Source: an uncultured Flavobacteriaceae bacterium
GTDB taxonomy: Bacteria > Bacteroidota > Bacteroidia > Flavobacteriales > Flavobacteriaceae
DNA: 64,000 nucleotides
Reading direction: 5' to 3'
NCBI GenBank assembly: GCA_947494695.1
Contig: CANLWB010000005.1
Location: forward strand, 310,001-374,000
A program made the position numbers and the translations under genes. Positions 58,927-63,713 of the stretch are shown here, one piece after another. Every line of letters starts with the position of its first letter. Position 1 is the stretch's first letter. The notes under the pieces were generated by a model that saw only the letters and a list, made by a program, of their open reading frames with translations, did no database searches and had not been told where the DNA came from.

Positions 58927-58959
58927 TTTGGAATTATCATTATAAATTATAGATATTTG
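58927..58959 (+). promoter_or_regulatory. Candidate promoter for his operon: TTTG-N21-GATATTTG
   Basis: TTTG at 58927-58930, GATATTTG at 58952-58959 (one mismatch to TAnnTTTG), 19 bp before the leader ATG. Confidence 0.45.
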
Positions 58960-58977
58960 CAACATAATAAAAAGAAC

Positions 58978-59031
58978 ATGAGCTTTATTCAATTACATCA
59001 TCATTTTCACATTTGCTCTCAAGCGAAGTGA
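58978..59031 (+). CDS. hisL: Histidine leader peptide MSFIQLHHHFHICSQAK
   Basis: ATG AGC TTT ATT CAA TTA CAT CAT CAT TTT CAC ATT TGC TCT CAA GCG AAG TGA; 4 His in 17 residues, immediately upstream of an intrinsic terminator and hisG. Confidence 0.85.
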   Translation: MSFIQLHHHFHICSQAK

Positions 59032-59047
59032 AAATGTATTGAATAAA
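58984..59047 (+). promoter_or_regulatory. Leader pause hairpin overlapping the His codons
   Basis: 58984-58993/59038-59047 (10 bp), 59002-59010/59028-59036 (9 bp), 59012-59017/59022-59027 (6 bp, one G-U), loop CTCA. Confidence 0.75.
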
Positions 59048-59060
59048 TTCAACATATTTT

Positions 59061-59094
59061 AAACCCGTTTGAGACAATCAAACGGGTTTTTTAA
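59061..59094 (+). terminator. Intrinsic terminator/attenuator upstream of hisG
   Basis: Perfect 12-bp stem AAACCCGTTTGA / TCAAACGGGTTT, loop GACAA, followed by T-tract; 48 bp before the hisG ATG. Confidence 0.9.
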
Positions 59095-59141
59095 TTTAAA
59101 ATTCCAAAACTGATTGTTTCAAACTCATCAAAAACGAAAAA

Positions 59142-59999
59142 ATGAGTACATTAAGAATTGCAGTACAAAAATCGGGTCGATTAAACGAGGACTCAATGAA
59201 AATTTTAAAAGACATTGGTATTTCCATTGATAACGGAAAGGACCAGTTAAAAGCTTCAGCCAGAAACTTTCCTGTAGAAGTATTTTATCTTAGAAACGGT
59301 GATATTCCTCAATACCTTAAAGATGGCGTAGTCGATGCCGCTATTATTGGTGAAAATGTACTTGTGGAAAAAGGAGAGGACGTTGAAATTGCTGAAAAAC
59401 TAGGATTTTCCACTTGTAGAGTATGTATTGCCGTTCCTAAATCGGTTAATTACAAGGGAATAGCTGATTTGGAAGGAAAACGTATTGCTACATCGTATCC
59501 CAATACCGTTAATAATTACTTAAAAGAACATAATATTAGTGCCAACCTTCACATCATTAACGGTTCTGTTGAAATTGCACCAAATATTGGTCTGGCCGAT
59601 GCTATTTGTGATATTGTTTCAAGTGGAAGCACCTTGTTTAAAAACAATCTAAAGGAGGTAGAAACCATTTTAAAATCGGAAGCCGTATTGGCTGTTTCTC
59701 CACTTCTTAATGAAGAAAAACAGGCCATTCTTAATAAGATTCAGTTTAGAATCCAATCGGTATTAAAAGGCCGACAATCGAAATATATATTATTAAATGC
59801 TCCAAACGAAAAAATTCAGGACATTATTAATGTATTACCCGGAATGAAAAGCCCAACAGTTTTACCACTGGCAGAGGACGGTTGGAGTTCTGTACATTCG
59901 GTGATAAGCAAAAATGAGTTTTGGGATGTTATTGATGAATTAAAAGATAATGGCGCACAGGGAATTTTAGTTTGCCCAATTGAAAAAATGGTACTATAA
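59142..59999 (+). CDS. hisG: ATP phosphoribosyltransferase
   Basis: LRIAVQKSGRLNEDSMKILKDIGISI; DAAIIGENVLVEKG; DAICDIVSSGSTL. Confidence 0.97.
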   Translation: MSTLRIAVQKSGRLNEDSMKILKDIGISIDNGKDQLKASARNFPVEVFYLRNGDIPQYLKDGVVDAAIIGENVLVEKGEDVEIAEKLGFSTCRVCIAVPKSVNYKGIADLEGKRIATSYPNTVNNYLKEHNISANLHIINGSVEIAPNIGLADAICDIVSSGSTLFKNNLKEVETILKSEAVLAVSPLLNEEKQAILNKIQFRIQSVLKGRQSKYILLNAPNEKIQDIINVLPGMKSPTVLPLAEDGWSSVHSVISKNEFWDVIDELKDNGAQGILVCPIEKMVL

Positions 60000-60090: not shown

Positions 60091-61392
60091 ATGAAAATAA
60101 TAGATAGTCCAAATAAAGAAAATTGGTCCGAGGTTTTAAAACGCCCTACACAGACCGTAGATGATATCGAAGGTATTGTTAGCGACGTGTTTAATGATGT
60201 TATAAAAAACGGAGACCAAGCTATTAAAGCGTACACTCAGCGTTTTGATGGTGTAGATATGTCGTCCAATATTGTAACTCAGGAACGTATTCAGAATGCG
60301 ATTAAAAATGTTCCAGAAGCACTTCAAAATGCCATTATAAGAGCCAAAAACAATATTGAAGCCTTTCATGCGGCGCAAAAAACGTCTAAAATAGACATTC
60401 AAACTACCAATGGCGTACAATGCTGGCAGGAAAAACGTCCAATTGAAAAAGTGGGCTTATACATTCCCGGAGGGACGGCACCTTTGTTTTCAACCGTATT
60501 GATGTTGGCGGTACCTGCGCAAATAGCCGGATGTAAAGACATTGTATTATGTTCACCTCCTAATAAGTTGGGCGAGTTAGCGCCAGAGATTCTTTTTGCA
60601 GCGCAACTCTGTGGTGTTACAAAAATTATTAAAGTGGGAGGCATTCAGGCCATTGCCGGATTGGCATTTGGAACCGAAACCATACCTCAGGTTTATAAAA
60701 TTTTCGGACCTGGAAATCAATTTGTAACCGTAGCAAAACAACTTGCTACCAAGTATGGTGTTGCCATTGATATGCCTGCCGGACCAAGTGAACTGTTAGT
60801 TGTAGCAGACGATTCTGCTAATGCATCATACATCGCTTCAGACTTGTTAAGTCAAGCAGAACACGGTACCGATAGTCAGGTGATTTTGGTGTCCACTTCA
60901 AAAAAACTAATCGATTCCGTTTCAGAAGAAGTCGATAAACAAATTAAAGTATTACCCCGACAGGACATTGCAGAAGAAGCCATTGCCAATTCAAAACTTA
61001 TTTTTGTAGAACATAAAGAATTCGCGTTGGAGCTAATTAATGAATATGGACCGGAGCACTTTATAATTTGTACAGAAGATAACGATTTTTACGTCGATGG
61101 GATTACGAATGCCGGATCGGTATTTATAGGTAACTACACCCCGGAAAGTGCTGGTGATTATGCCTCTGGCACGAATCACACACTACCAACTAATGGATTT
61201 TCGAAAGCCTATTCTGGAGTGAATCTGGACAGCTTTCTTAAAAGTATGACCTTTCAAAAAATAAGTAAGGAAGGCTTACTTAACATTGGAGAAACCATCG
61301 AGTTGATGGCTGAAGCAGAGGGTTTACAGGCCCACAAAAATGCGGTATCCATTAGATTAAAAGATATTATTCCTGAAAAGTCGGGAAGCTAA
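60091..61392 (+). CDS. hisD: Histidinol dehydrogenase
   Basis: PIEKVGLYIPGGTAPLFSTVLMLAVPAQIAGC; KIFGPGNQFVTVAKQL; AGPSELLVVADDSANASYIASDLLSQAEHG. Confidence 0.97.
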   Translation: MKIIDSPNKENWSEVLKRPTQTVDDIEGIVSDVFNDVIKNGDQAIKAYTQRFDGVDMSSNIVTQERIQNAIKNVPEALQNAIIRAKNNIEAFHAAQKTSKIDIQTTNGVQCWQEKRPIEKVGLYIPGGTAPLFSTVLMLAVPAQIAGCKDIVLCSPPNKLGELAPEILFAAQLCGVTKIIKVGGIQAIAGLAFGTETIPQVYKIFGPGNQFVTVAKQLATKYGVAIDMPAGPSELLVVADDSANASYIASDLLSQAEHGTDSQVILVSTSKKLIDSVSEEVDKQIKVLPRQDIAEEAIANSKLIFVEHKEFALELINEYGPEHFIICTEDNDFYVDGITNAGSVFIGNYTPESAGDYASGTNHTLPTNGFSKAYSGVNLDSFLKSMTFQKISKEGLLNIGETIELMAEAEGLQAHKNAVSIRLKDIIPEKSGS

Positions 61393-61414: not shown

Positions 61415-62464
61415 ATGAAAACCATAAATTTCAATATAAATGACATCGTAAGGCCTACTATAAAAGCCTTAAAGCCTTATTCTTCGGCTAGAGATGAGTT
61501 TCAGGGTAATAGCGACGCTATGGTGTTTCTTGATGCCAACGAAAACCCCTTCGAGAATGGAGTTAACAGGTATCCGGATCCGCAGCAGCGCACCTTAAAA
61601 TCCATACTTTCAGAAATTAAAAATATTGACACTAAACATATCCTTTTAGGCAATGGAAGTGATGAAGTACTGGACCTTATTTTTAGAGCATTTTGTGAAC
61701 CTAATGAGGATAACATCATCATTTTACCTCCAACATATGGAATGTACAGTGTTTTGGCTAATATTAATGCAATTGGGATTAAAGAGGTTCGACTATCTGA
61801 TGACTTTCAGCCAAAAGTTGACGATATACTTAATATGGCAGATAGTCATAGTAAAGTGCTTTTTCTGTGTTCACCAAATAACCCGACCGGTAATAGTTTT
61901 TCAGGCGCGTCAATTGAGGCATTGTTAAGCAAGTTCAAAGGAATCGTTGTTATTGATGAAGCTTATATCGACTTTTCGGAAGAAGCTAGCTGGCTGGAAA
62001 GGCTTAACGAATTTCCAAATTTAATGATTACCCAAACCCTGTCAAAAGCTTATGGAATGGCTGGAATTAGGTTAGGAATTTGCTATGCTTCAACAGAAAT
62101 TATATCTATTTTAAACAGAATAAAGCCGCCATATAACGTCAATGAACTTACACAACAAAAGGCCATTCAGCAATTAAATCTAAAAGAGTTAGCAACTAAT
62201 CAGATAAACGATATATTAAAAGAACGTACCAATTTAATAGCACAACTTAAAACGGTAAGTTTTATATCAAAAATTTATCCTTCAGATGCTAATTTTGTTT
62301 TGGTAAAAGTAGACGATGCCGTAAAACGCTATGATCAGCTTATAGAAAAAGGTATAGTTATTAGAAACAGAACAACACAGCCAGGTTGTGAAAATTGTTT
62401 GAGGTTAACGGTGGGTAAAAGTAACGAAAACAACATATTGATAAAAACGTTAAAAGGCTTATAA
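61415..62464 (+). CDS. hisC: Histidinol-phosphate aminotransferase
   Basis: LDANENPFENGVNRYPDPQQ; LGNGSDEVLDLIFRAF; LSKAYGMAGIRLG. Confidence 0.96.
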   Translation: MKTINFNINDIVRPTIKALKPYSSARDEFQGNSDAMVFLDANENPFENGVNRYPDPQQRTLKSILSEIKNIDTKHILLGNGSDEVLDLIFRAFCEPNEDNIIILPPTYGMYSVLANINAIGIKEVRLSDDFQPKVDDILNMADSHSKVLFLCSPNNPTGNSFSGASIEALLSKFKGIVVIDEAYIDFSEEASWLERLNEFPNLMITQTLSKAYGMAGIRLGICYASTEIISILNRIKPPYNVNELTQQKAIQQLNLKELATNQINDILKERTNLIAQLKTVSFISKIYPSDANFVLVKVDDAVKRYDQLIEKGIVIRNRTTQPGCENCLRLTVGKSNENNILIKTLKGL

Positions 62465-62579: not shown

Positions 62580-63713
62580 ATGAAAAAAACACTATTCATA
62601 GACCGAGACGGAACCATCATTAGAGAACCGGCAGACGAACAAATCGATTCGTTTGAAAAACTTGAATTTTACCCTAAAGTATTTCACTATTTAGGCAGAA
62701 TTGCTAAGGAGTTAGACTATGAAATCGTTATGATTACCAATCAGGATGGTTTAGGCACCGAGTCTTTCCCAGAACATGAGTTTTGGCCCATTCATAACTT
62801 CATTGTTAAATGTTTTGAAGATCAGGGGATTGTTTTTAAGGAGCAATTTATTGATAGAACCTTTGCCAAAGACAATGCGCCAACAAGAAAACCAAATACA
62901 GGCCTTCTTACAAAGTATTTTTCAGAGGAATACGATTTAGAAAATTCATTTGTAATCGGAGACAGGCTCACCGATATCGAATTAGCAAAGAATTTAGGTG
63001 CTAAAGGTGTTTTTATCAATGATGAAACACATTTGGGAACAGATGAAATCACGGTAAAAAGAGAGGAATTAGACGCGTTCATCGCTTTAGAAACCAACGA
63101 TTGGGAGAAGATATATACCTTCTTAAAAACCAATGCGCGTACTGGTGAAATTATTAGAAACACTAATGAAACTAAGATCGCTATTCATGTGAATTTAGAT
63201 GGCACAGGAAAAAGTGATATTGATACTGGGCTAGCCTTTTTCGATCATATGCTCGATCAAATAGCGCGTCACGGACAAATAGACTTAAGTATCAAGGTAG
63301 ATGGTGACTTAGAAGTCGATGAGCACCACACCATTGAGGATACCGCTATTGCATTGGGAGAGGTCTTTAATACAGCGCTTGGAAACAAATTAGGCATTGA
63401 ACGTTACGGCTTCTGTTTGCCTATGGACGATTGTTATGCACAGTCTGCTATCGACTTTGGAGGTAGAAACTGGCTCGTTTGGGAAGCTGATTTTAAACGA
63501 GAAATGATCGGTAAAATGCCAACCGAAATGTTTTACCATTTCTTTAAGTCGTTTACAGACGGAGCCAAATGTAATTTAAATATTAAGGCCGAAGGACAAA
63601 ACGAACATCACAAAATAGAAGCTATTTTTAAAGCGTTCGCAAAAGCAATTAAAATGGCAGTAAAGAGAGATGTTGAAAAGATGATTTTACCATCAACAAA
63701 AGGCGTTTTATAA
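62580..63713 (+). CDS. hisB: Bifunctional histidinol-phosphatase / imidazoleglycerol-phosphate dehydratase
   Basis: [16 protein letters not shown] domain; [48 protein letters not shown]. Confidence 0.97.

Follow-up and report, generated by a model that had tools for sequence, protein, structure and literature searches.

The hisG leader and its operon

The window (i.e., the whole stretch of 64,000 nucleotides that was analysed, from an uncultured Flavobacteriaceae bacterium) carries the histidine biosynthesis genes hisGDCB, and a compact leader region lies in front of hisG. The features are as follows, with the strands of the alternative hairpins numbered 1 to 5.

58927-58959, + strand: probable promoter, judged from sequence, with TTTGG at 58927-58931 (-33-like) and ATATTTG ending at 58959
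58978-59031, + strand: hisL leader peptide MSFIQLHHHFHICSQAK, 17 codons, ATG 58978, TGA 59031, identified from sequence and family comparison
58984-59047, + strand: pause hairpin (1:2), whose 5' arm spans the His codons
58996-59004 and 59008-59010, + strand: regulatory His codons of hisL, read from the sequence (CAT CAT CAT and CAC, respectively)
59017-59025, + strand: strand 2, TCTCAAGCG, the outer 5' strand of the antiterminator and leader codons Ser-Gln-Ala, pairing with 59066-59074 (covariation)
59031-59060, + strand: inner stem of the antiterminator, AAAATGT-TTGAA / TTCAA-ATATTTT (59031-59043 with 59048-59060), from the fold of 59017-59080
59061-59092, + strand: intrinsic terminator (3:4), a 12-bp hairpin (59061-59089) with the 5-nt loop GACAA and a T-tract, from folding and a shuffle search
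59066-59074, + strand: strand 3, CGTTTGAGA, common to the antiterminator (with strand 2) and the terminator (with strand 4)
59111-59124, + strand: strand 5, TGATTGTTTCAAAC, complementary to 59067-59080 and ending 17 nt before the hisG ATG
59142-59999, + strand: hisG, ATP phosphoribosyltransferase, first gene of the operon (Pfam PF01634, PF08029)
60091-61392, + strand: hisD (Pfam PF00815)
61415-62464, + strand: hisC-type aminotransferase gene (Pfam PF00155)
62580-63713, + strand: bifunctional hisB (Pfam PF00475 with a HAD-like N-part)

In the 64-kb window, both strands considered, hisL is the sole ATG-started ORF of at most 35 amino acids that contains HHH. We found hisG in 102 of 121 Flavobacteriaceae genomes and took the upstream regions of 90 Flavobacteriaceae loci, one of which stops at a contig edge (i.e., 89 usable loci). 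All 89 contain a small ORF in which His codons are clustered and which stops a short way upstream of hisG, and the commonest leader pattern among these loci is M..IQLHHHHFHTCTQAS. The 17-aa His leader peptide that a preliminary description of this DNA had placed before hisG is thus present, with His-rich counterparts throughout the family sample. Within the His runs of the family leaders, CAT accounts for 281 of the 303 codons. The leader of one locus (L057) would start at a non-ATG codon, and the leader ends early or late in a few others (L022, L046, L072, L078, and L087-L089).

In the probable promoter, ATATTTG resembles the Bacteroidota -7 box TAnnTTTG only weakly (consensus from general knowledge and PMC6847099). 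A TTTG-type box recurs in the family approximately 18 to 20 nt before the leader ATG and lies 8 to 10 nt before it in other lineages; in L025, L028, L031, L034, L041, and L052, a promoter-like box (TAATTTTAC) ends approximately 8 nt before the ATG. On the basis of this short distance (i.e., approximately 8 to 10 nt), the RNA from which the leader is translated may be nearly leaderless in some lineages. No Shine-Dalgarno-like motif was detected in the 89 leaders or the 89 hisG genes of the Flavobacteriaceae loci, and A is the commonest base at position -3 of both the leader and the hisG starts. The lack of a Shine-Dalgarno sequence, which had been pointed out for this leader, is no exception; such absence is normal in Bacteroidota (PMC6847099).

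Alternative hairpins and predicted ribosome stalling

The region from 58970 to 59095 folds at -40.1 kcal/mol (z = -8.9), a value equalled by none of 200 shuffles. The hairpins expected from the preliminary description are largely borne out. The pause hairpin over the His codons was recovered at 58984 to 59047 (-19.7 kcal/mol; z = -5.7), and so was the 12-bp terminator with its 5-nt loop and T-tract (one terminator found, compared with 0.1 expected in shuffles). The antiterminator (59017-59074; -18.1 kcal/mol; z = -5.9) is about as strong as the terminator. It had been described as a 9-bp pairing of 59017-59025 with 59066-59074; the pairing itself stands, but its extent does not, since folding of 59017-59080 without the 3' arm of the terminator yielded the outer 9 bp together with 12 more bp inside (i.e., inner helices of 7 and 5 bp).

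These structures recur in the family. A terminator is present in all 88 of the Flavobacteriaceae loci analysed; the 2:3 segment has z < -2 in 85 of the 88, and the segment of the leader upstream of strand 3 has z < -2 in 76. The mean energies over the 88 loci are -18.6 (1:2), -17.0 (2:3), and -16.8 (3:4) kcal/mol. The pause hairpin, the antiterminator, and the terminator are therefore approximately equally strong, which matches the requirement of an attenuator. When RNAalifold was applied to the whole 58-sequence alignment, the terminator was the only consensus structure recovered, because the alternative structures cancel each other and the spacing varies in the MAFFT alignment. RNAalifold was replaced by folds for each locus and by counts over named structures; hairpin 1:2, the weakest point of the three-hairpin scheme, is consequently supported by the per-locus energies and not by covariation.

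Covariation of the antiterminator was counted on the same 58-sequence alignment, which provided the check over hisG leaders that the preliminary description had proposed; the check was passed. In the outer antiterminator helix, 92.1% of the cells are paired, compared with 20 to 47% when one side is slid by 1 to 3 columns. Cells changed on both sides numbered 26, compared with 11.0 in shuffles, and none of 500 shuffles reached as high a count. The pair flanking the helix switches its type among lineages (i.e., GC, AU, and UA), and in the lineages in which the terminator arm reads GTCTGA or ATCTGA (L059 and L087-L090), the leader strand matches. The covariation is largely confined to two of the nine pairs. 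Most of the remaining pairs are nearly invariant, in part because the peptide is encoded in strand 2 as well.

The spacing of these elements is highly regular. Exactly 12 nt separate the last His codon of the run from the antiterminator strand in 77 of the 88 loci, and in 75 the stop codon ends 15 nt after strand 2 begins. A ribosome covers about 11 to 12 nt past its A-site codon. With this footprint, which is taken from general knowledge, strand 2 would lie just beyond the reach of a ribosome halted at the last His codon but beneath one that has arrived at the stop codon. The attenuator is so regular that the distance from stall to antiterminator can be read as 12 nt.

The locus thus has a promoter-like site, a 17-codon His leader, and three mutually exclusive hairpins (1:2, 2:3, and 3:4) of near-equal energy. 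Each of the elements by which an attenuator is recognized was found: a cluster of codons for the amino acid in a short ORF upstream of the his operon; an intrinsic terminator between the leader ORF and the first gene; a covarying antiterminator that excludes the terminator and has its 5' strand in or near the leader ORF; a stall codon placed so that strand 2 would be spared or covered; and his biosynthesis genes downstream of the leader (Pfam HisG, Histidinol_dh, aminotransferase, and IGPD). From these sequence features, we predict that the region attenuates transcription of the hisGDCB operon in a ribosome-mediated manner, with a probability of roughly 0.93. Short ORFs with amino acid runs are common in AT-rich DNA, but no evidence was found for a chance combination of a His-rich ORF and a terminator with no regulation involved; such a coincidence is refuted, on sequence grounds, by conservation in 89 of 89 loci, by the fixed geometry, by the covariation, and by the z score of the fold, and its probability is negligible. 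The conserved leaders, the 12-nt spacing, and the covariation also support, at the level of sequence, the classical his attenuation logic that had been put forward for this leader.

Under the predicted attenuation mechanism, when His-tRNA is charged, the ribosome would reach the stop codon and cover strand 2, so that 3:4 could form; transcription would then end near 59092, leaving a leader RNA of approximately 130 nt. When His-tRNA is short, the ribosome would stall within the His run, its leading edge stopping immediately before 59017, and leave strand 2 free; 2:3 would pair, and the operon would be transcribed. This scheme assumes transcription-translation coupling in Bacteroidota. Since attenuation needs a ribosome close behind RNA polymerase, the leader offers a natural test of such coupling. 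It would also bring classical attenuation into a phylum in which ribosomes disregard Shine-Dalgarno sequences.

A conserved strand beyond the terminator

The preliminary description regarded the attenuator as complete at the T-tract. Its mechanism holds, but the account omitted a conserved element farther downstream, strand 5, which is what is new here in an otherwise known kind of attenuator. The partner of strand 5 (59067-59080; GTTTGAGACAATCA) comprises the upper 5' arm of the terminator, the loop, and the first bases of the 3' arm. In the window, the duplex has an energy of -18.1 kcal/mol, the best of 200 shuffles. Compared with dinucleotide shuffles, it reaches p < 0.05 in 57 of 87 family loci (approximately 4 expected) and the lowest possible p in 49 of the 87. 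In the phylum sample, which contains 26 family loci (a few shared with the first set), p < 0.05 was obtained in 18. Strand 5 is weak or absent in about a third of the family loci. It is also found in another Flavobacteriales family (L117, L118, and L120) and in L127; little was detected beyond L127 when the shuffle test was applied to the phylum-sample loci outside Flavobacteriales.

The pairing follows the partner rather than a fixed sequence. Over 25 apex types, the duplex averages -15.6 kcal/mol with its own partner and -11.1 kcal/mol with swapped partners (permutation standard deviation, 0.35). Among 49 distinct combinations of apex and strand 5, 92% of the cells pair, compared with at most 83% in 1,000 partner shuffles, and compensatory cells number 74, compared with at most 32 in 1,000 shuffles (Flavobacteriales). 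These shuffles leave relatedness in place. Since many apex types each match their own partner, shared ancestry poorly explains the pairing. Within groups, conservation extends over strand 5 but not over its upstream flank.

Strand 5 mostly ends 13 to 24 nt before the ATG, but it lies 33 to 61 nt upstream in several lineages, and a simple block of hisG initiation therefore does not fit all of them. In L033, L035, L043, and L055, an extra stretch with a short palindrome (e.g., CCTGCATTCGCAGG) separates strand 5 from the hisG ATG; the stretch resembles a small inserted repeat and shifts strand 5 away from the start codon.

A direct part for strand 5 in the termination decision was rejected, because the strand begins approximately 20 nt past the T-tract, is transcribed only after read-through, and cannot influence that decision. 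If active, strand 5 would act on mRNAs that have already been read through. We tentatively propose, at a little under even odds, that the Flavobacteriales his attenuator has a second, posttranscriptional layer in which strand 5 controls his mRNAs past termination, with the leader RNA acting in trans or by refolding in cis. The covarying strand would then reflect either a regulatory RNA that the switch itself gives rise to or a further structural step that follows read-through.

In the cis version, strand 5 would open the upper terminator hairpin of the read-through mRNA, with the loop as a toehold, so that 3:5 replaces 3:4 and tunes hisG translation or mRNA stability; under starvation, 2:3 would hold strand 3 and leave strand 5 single-stranded beside the hisG start. 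In favour of this, the mean energies of 3:5 and 3:4 are close (-23.3 and -26.5 kcal/mol, respectively), and folding of the window's own segment gives 3:5 as the minimum; against it, 3:4 has the greater stability in 34 of 42 loci and is the first to form. The usual end of strand 5 adjoins the initiation region from -20 to +20, where initiation in F. johnsoniae benefits from low structure (PMC6847099), although in several lineages the strand is displaced to between -61 and -33. Weighing these points, we regard refolding in cis as plausible, with somewhat less than an even chance. Strand 5 could alternatively be the target of the terminated leader RNA of approximately 130 nt, which, as an antisense RNA, would bind it in whatever his mRNA is left and provide a second step of repression under histidine excess. 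The complementarity centres on the exposed loop together with the upper 5' arm and leaves out the CCC/GGG base of the hairpin, resembling loop-first antisense recognition; strand 5 is kept even where it lies far from the ATG; and other exact copies of the strand 5 site, or other exactly matching targets of the terminator apex, were not found in the genome. A precedent is provided by rnTrpL of Sinorhizobium meliloti, an attenuator-derived sRNA that destabilizes trpDC mRNA in trans (cited in PMC7298713), in that a terminated attenuator RNA acts on an mRNA of the same pathway; the target of rnTrpL is a second operon, whereas the sole exact complement here lies in the operon's own leader. Since pairing between molecules is predicted to gain little (mean, -3.1 kcal/mol) and the identical pairing is available in cis, we consider action in trans possible but on balance doubtful.

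A role at the DNA level is improbable. The terminator apex and strand 5 do form an inverted repeat that is conserved against its flanks and might bind a regulator with no RNA pairing involved, but more than 20 apex sequences each match their own partner, as the partner shuffles demonstrated, and a protein site would instead keep its letters.

Known his leaders and distribution in Bacteroidota

The leader resembles the his attenuator of E. coli and Salmonella (RF00514), as it is known from textbooks, in having a leader with His codons before hisG, alternative antiterminator and terminator structures, and control of the his operon. It differs from that system in its three-hairpin, trp-like layout (1:2, 2:3, and 3:4), in the lack of a Shine-Dalgarno sequence, in having strand 5 past the terminator, and in the lack of an Rfam match. 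To our knowledge, no strand past the terminator belongs to the textbook his attenuator. A 2004 abstract by Vitreschak et al. reportedly names Bacteroidetes/Chlorobi among the groups with candidate amino acid attenuators, which suggests that this kind of leader is probably not new in the phylum. The his attenuator is a kind already known, and it has probably been predicted before in Bacteroidetes/Chlorobi. Our literature search found no paper on a his leader in Bacteroidota, the likeliest ones (from 2004 and 2010) being outside its reach. Predicted his attenuators are described for the Bacillus cereus group, Peptostreptococcaceae, and Erysipelotrichales (PMC9413887). In the portion of that paper dealing with them, they share with the present leader 3 to 5 consecutive His codons followed by an alternative terminator and antiterminator; they belong to another phylum and have independent sequences, and a post-terminator strand is not mentioned in that portion.

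Rfam holds no family for the Bacteroidota his leader, which therefore goes unannotated. The His_leader model (RF00514) did not match the window leader even at E ≤ 10, and the T-box covariance model gave no match at E ≤ 10 in the window or at the gathering threshold in nine loci. No Rfam leader family matched these nine loci at the gathering threshold; the matches obtained under permissive settings were subthreshold and chance-like (e.g., Trp_leader, 23.7 bits compared with the 41 needed). A covariance model of the leader itself, used to scan 41 genomes, returned one full-length strong match per hisG-bearing relative. The weaker matches resemble generic terminators, and no amino acid leader peptide was seen in those inspected (L191-L194).

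In the phylum sample of 250 genomes, 217 yielded a hisG gene. The leaders outside the family differ in both peptide and terminator (e.g., MKQITHIHHHHFLTNG with a GGCTTACC terminator and MKNFNNTYHHHHHSNALGVRR with an ACCCGGC terminator). Among the nonfamily loci with a good terminator before hisG, an upstream strand pairs with the 5' arm at p < 0.05 in 30 of 34, and no candidate leader was found in about 17 of 62 loci outside the family. Judging from these sequences, histidine attenuation looks widespread in Bacteroidota, with a conserved logic and a drifting sequence. Loci from several other orders of Bacteroidota (L119-L169) have unrelated His leaders and terminators of the GGCTTACC or CCCCGGC type, with the same logic. 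Locus L127, from a genome (G272) that kinship places outside Flavobacteriales, in another class, combines a leader (MNLLQLHHHRHHHTCSQARW), a terminator, and a strand 5 of the Flavobacteriales type, which suggests that the his operon was transferred to this genome together with its switch.
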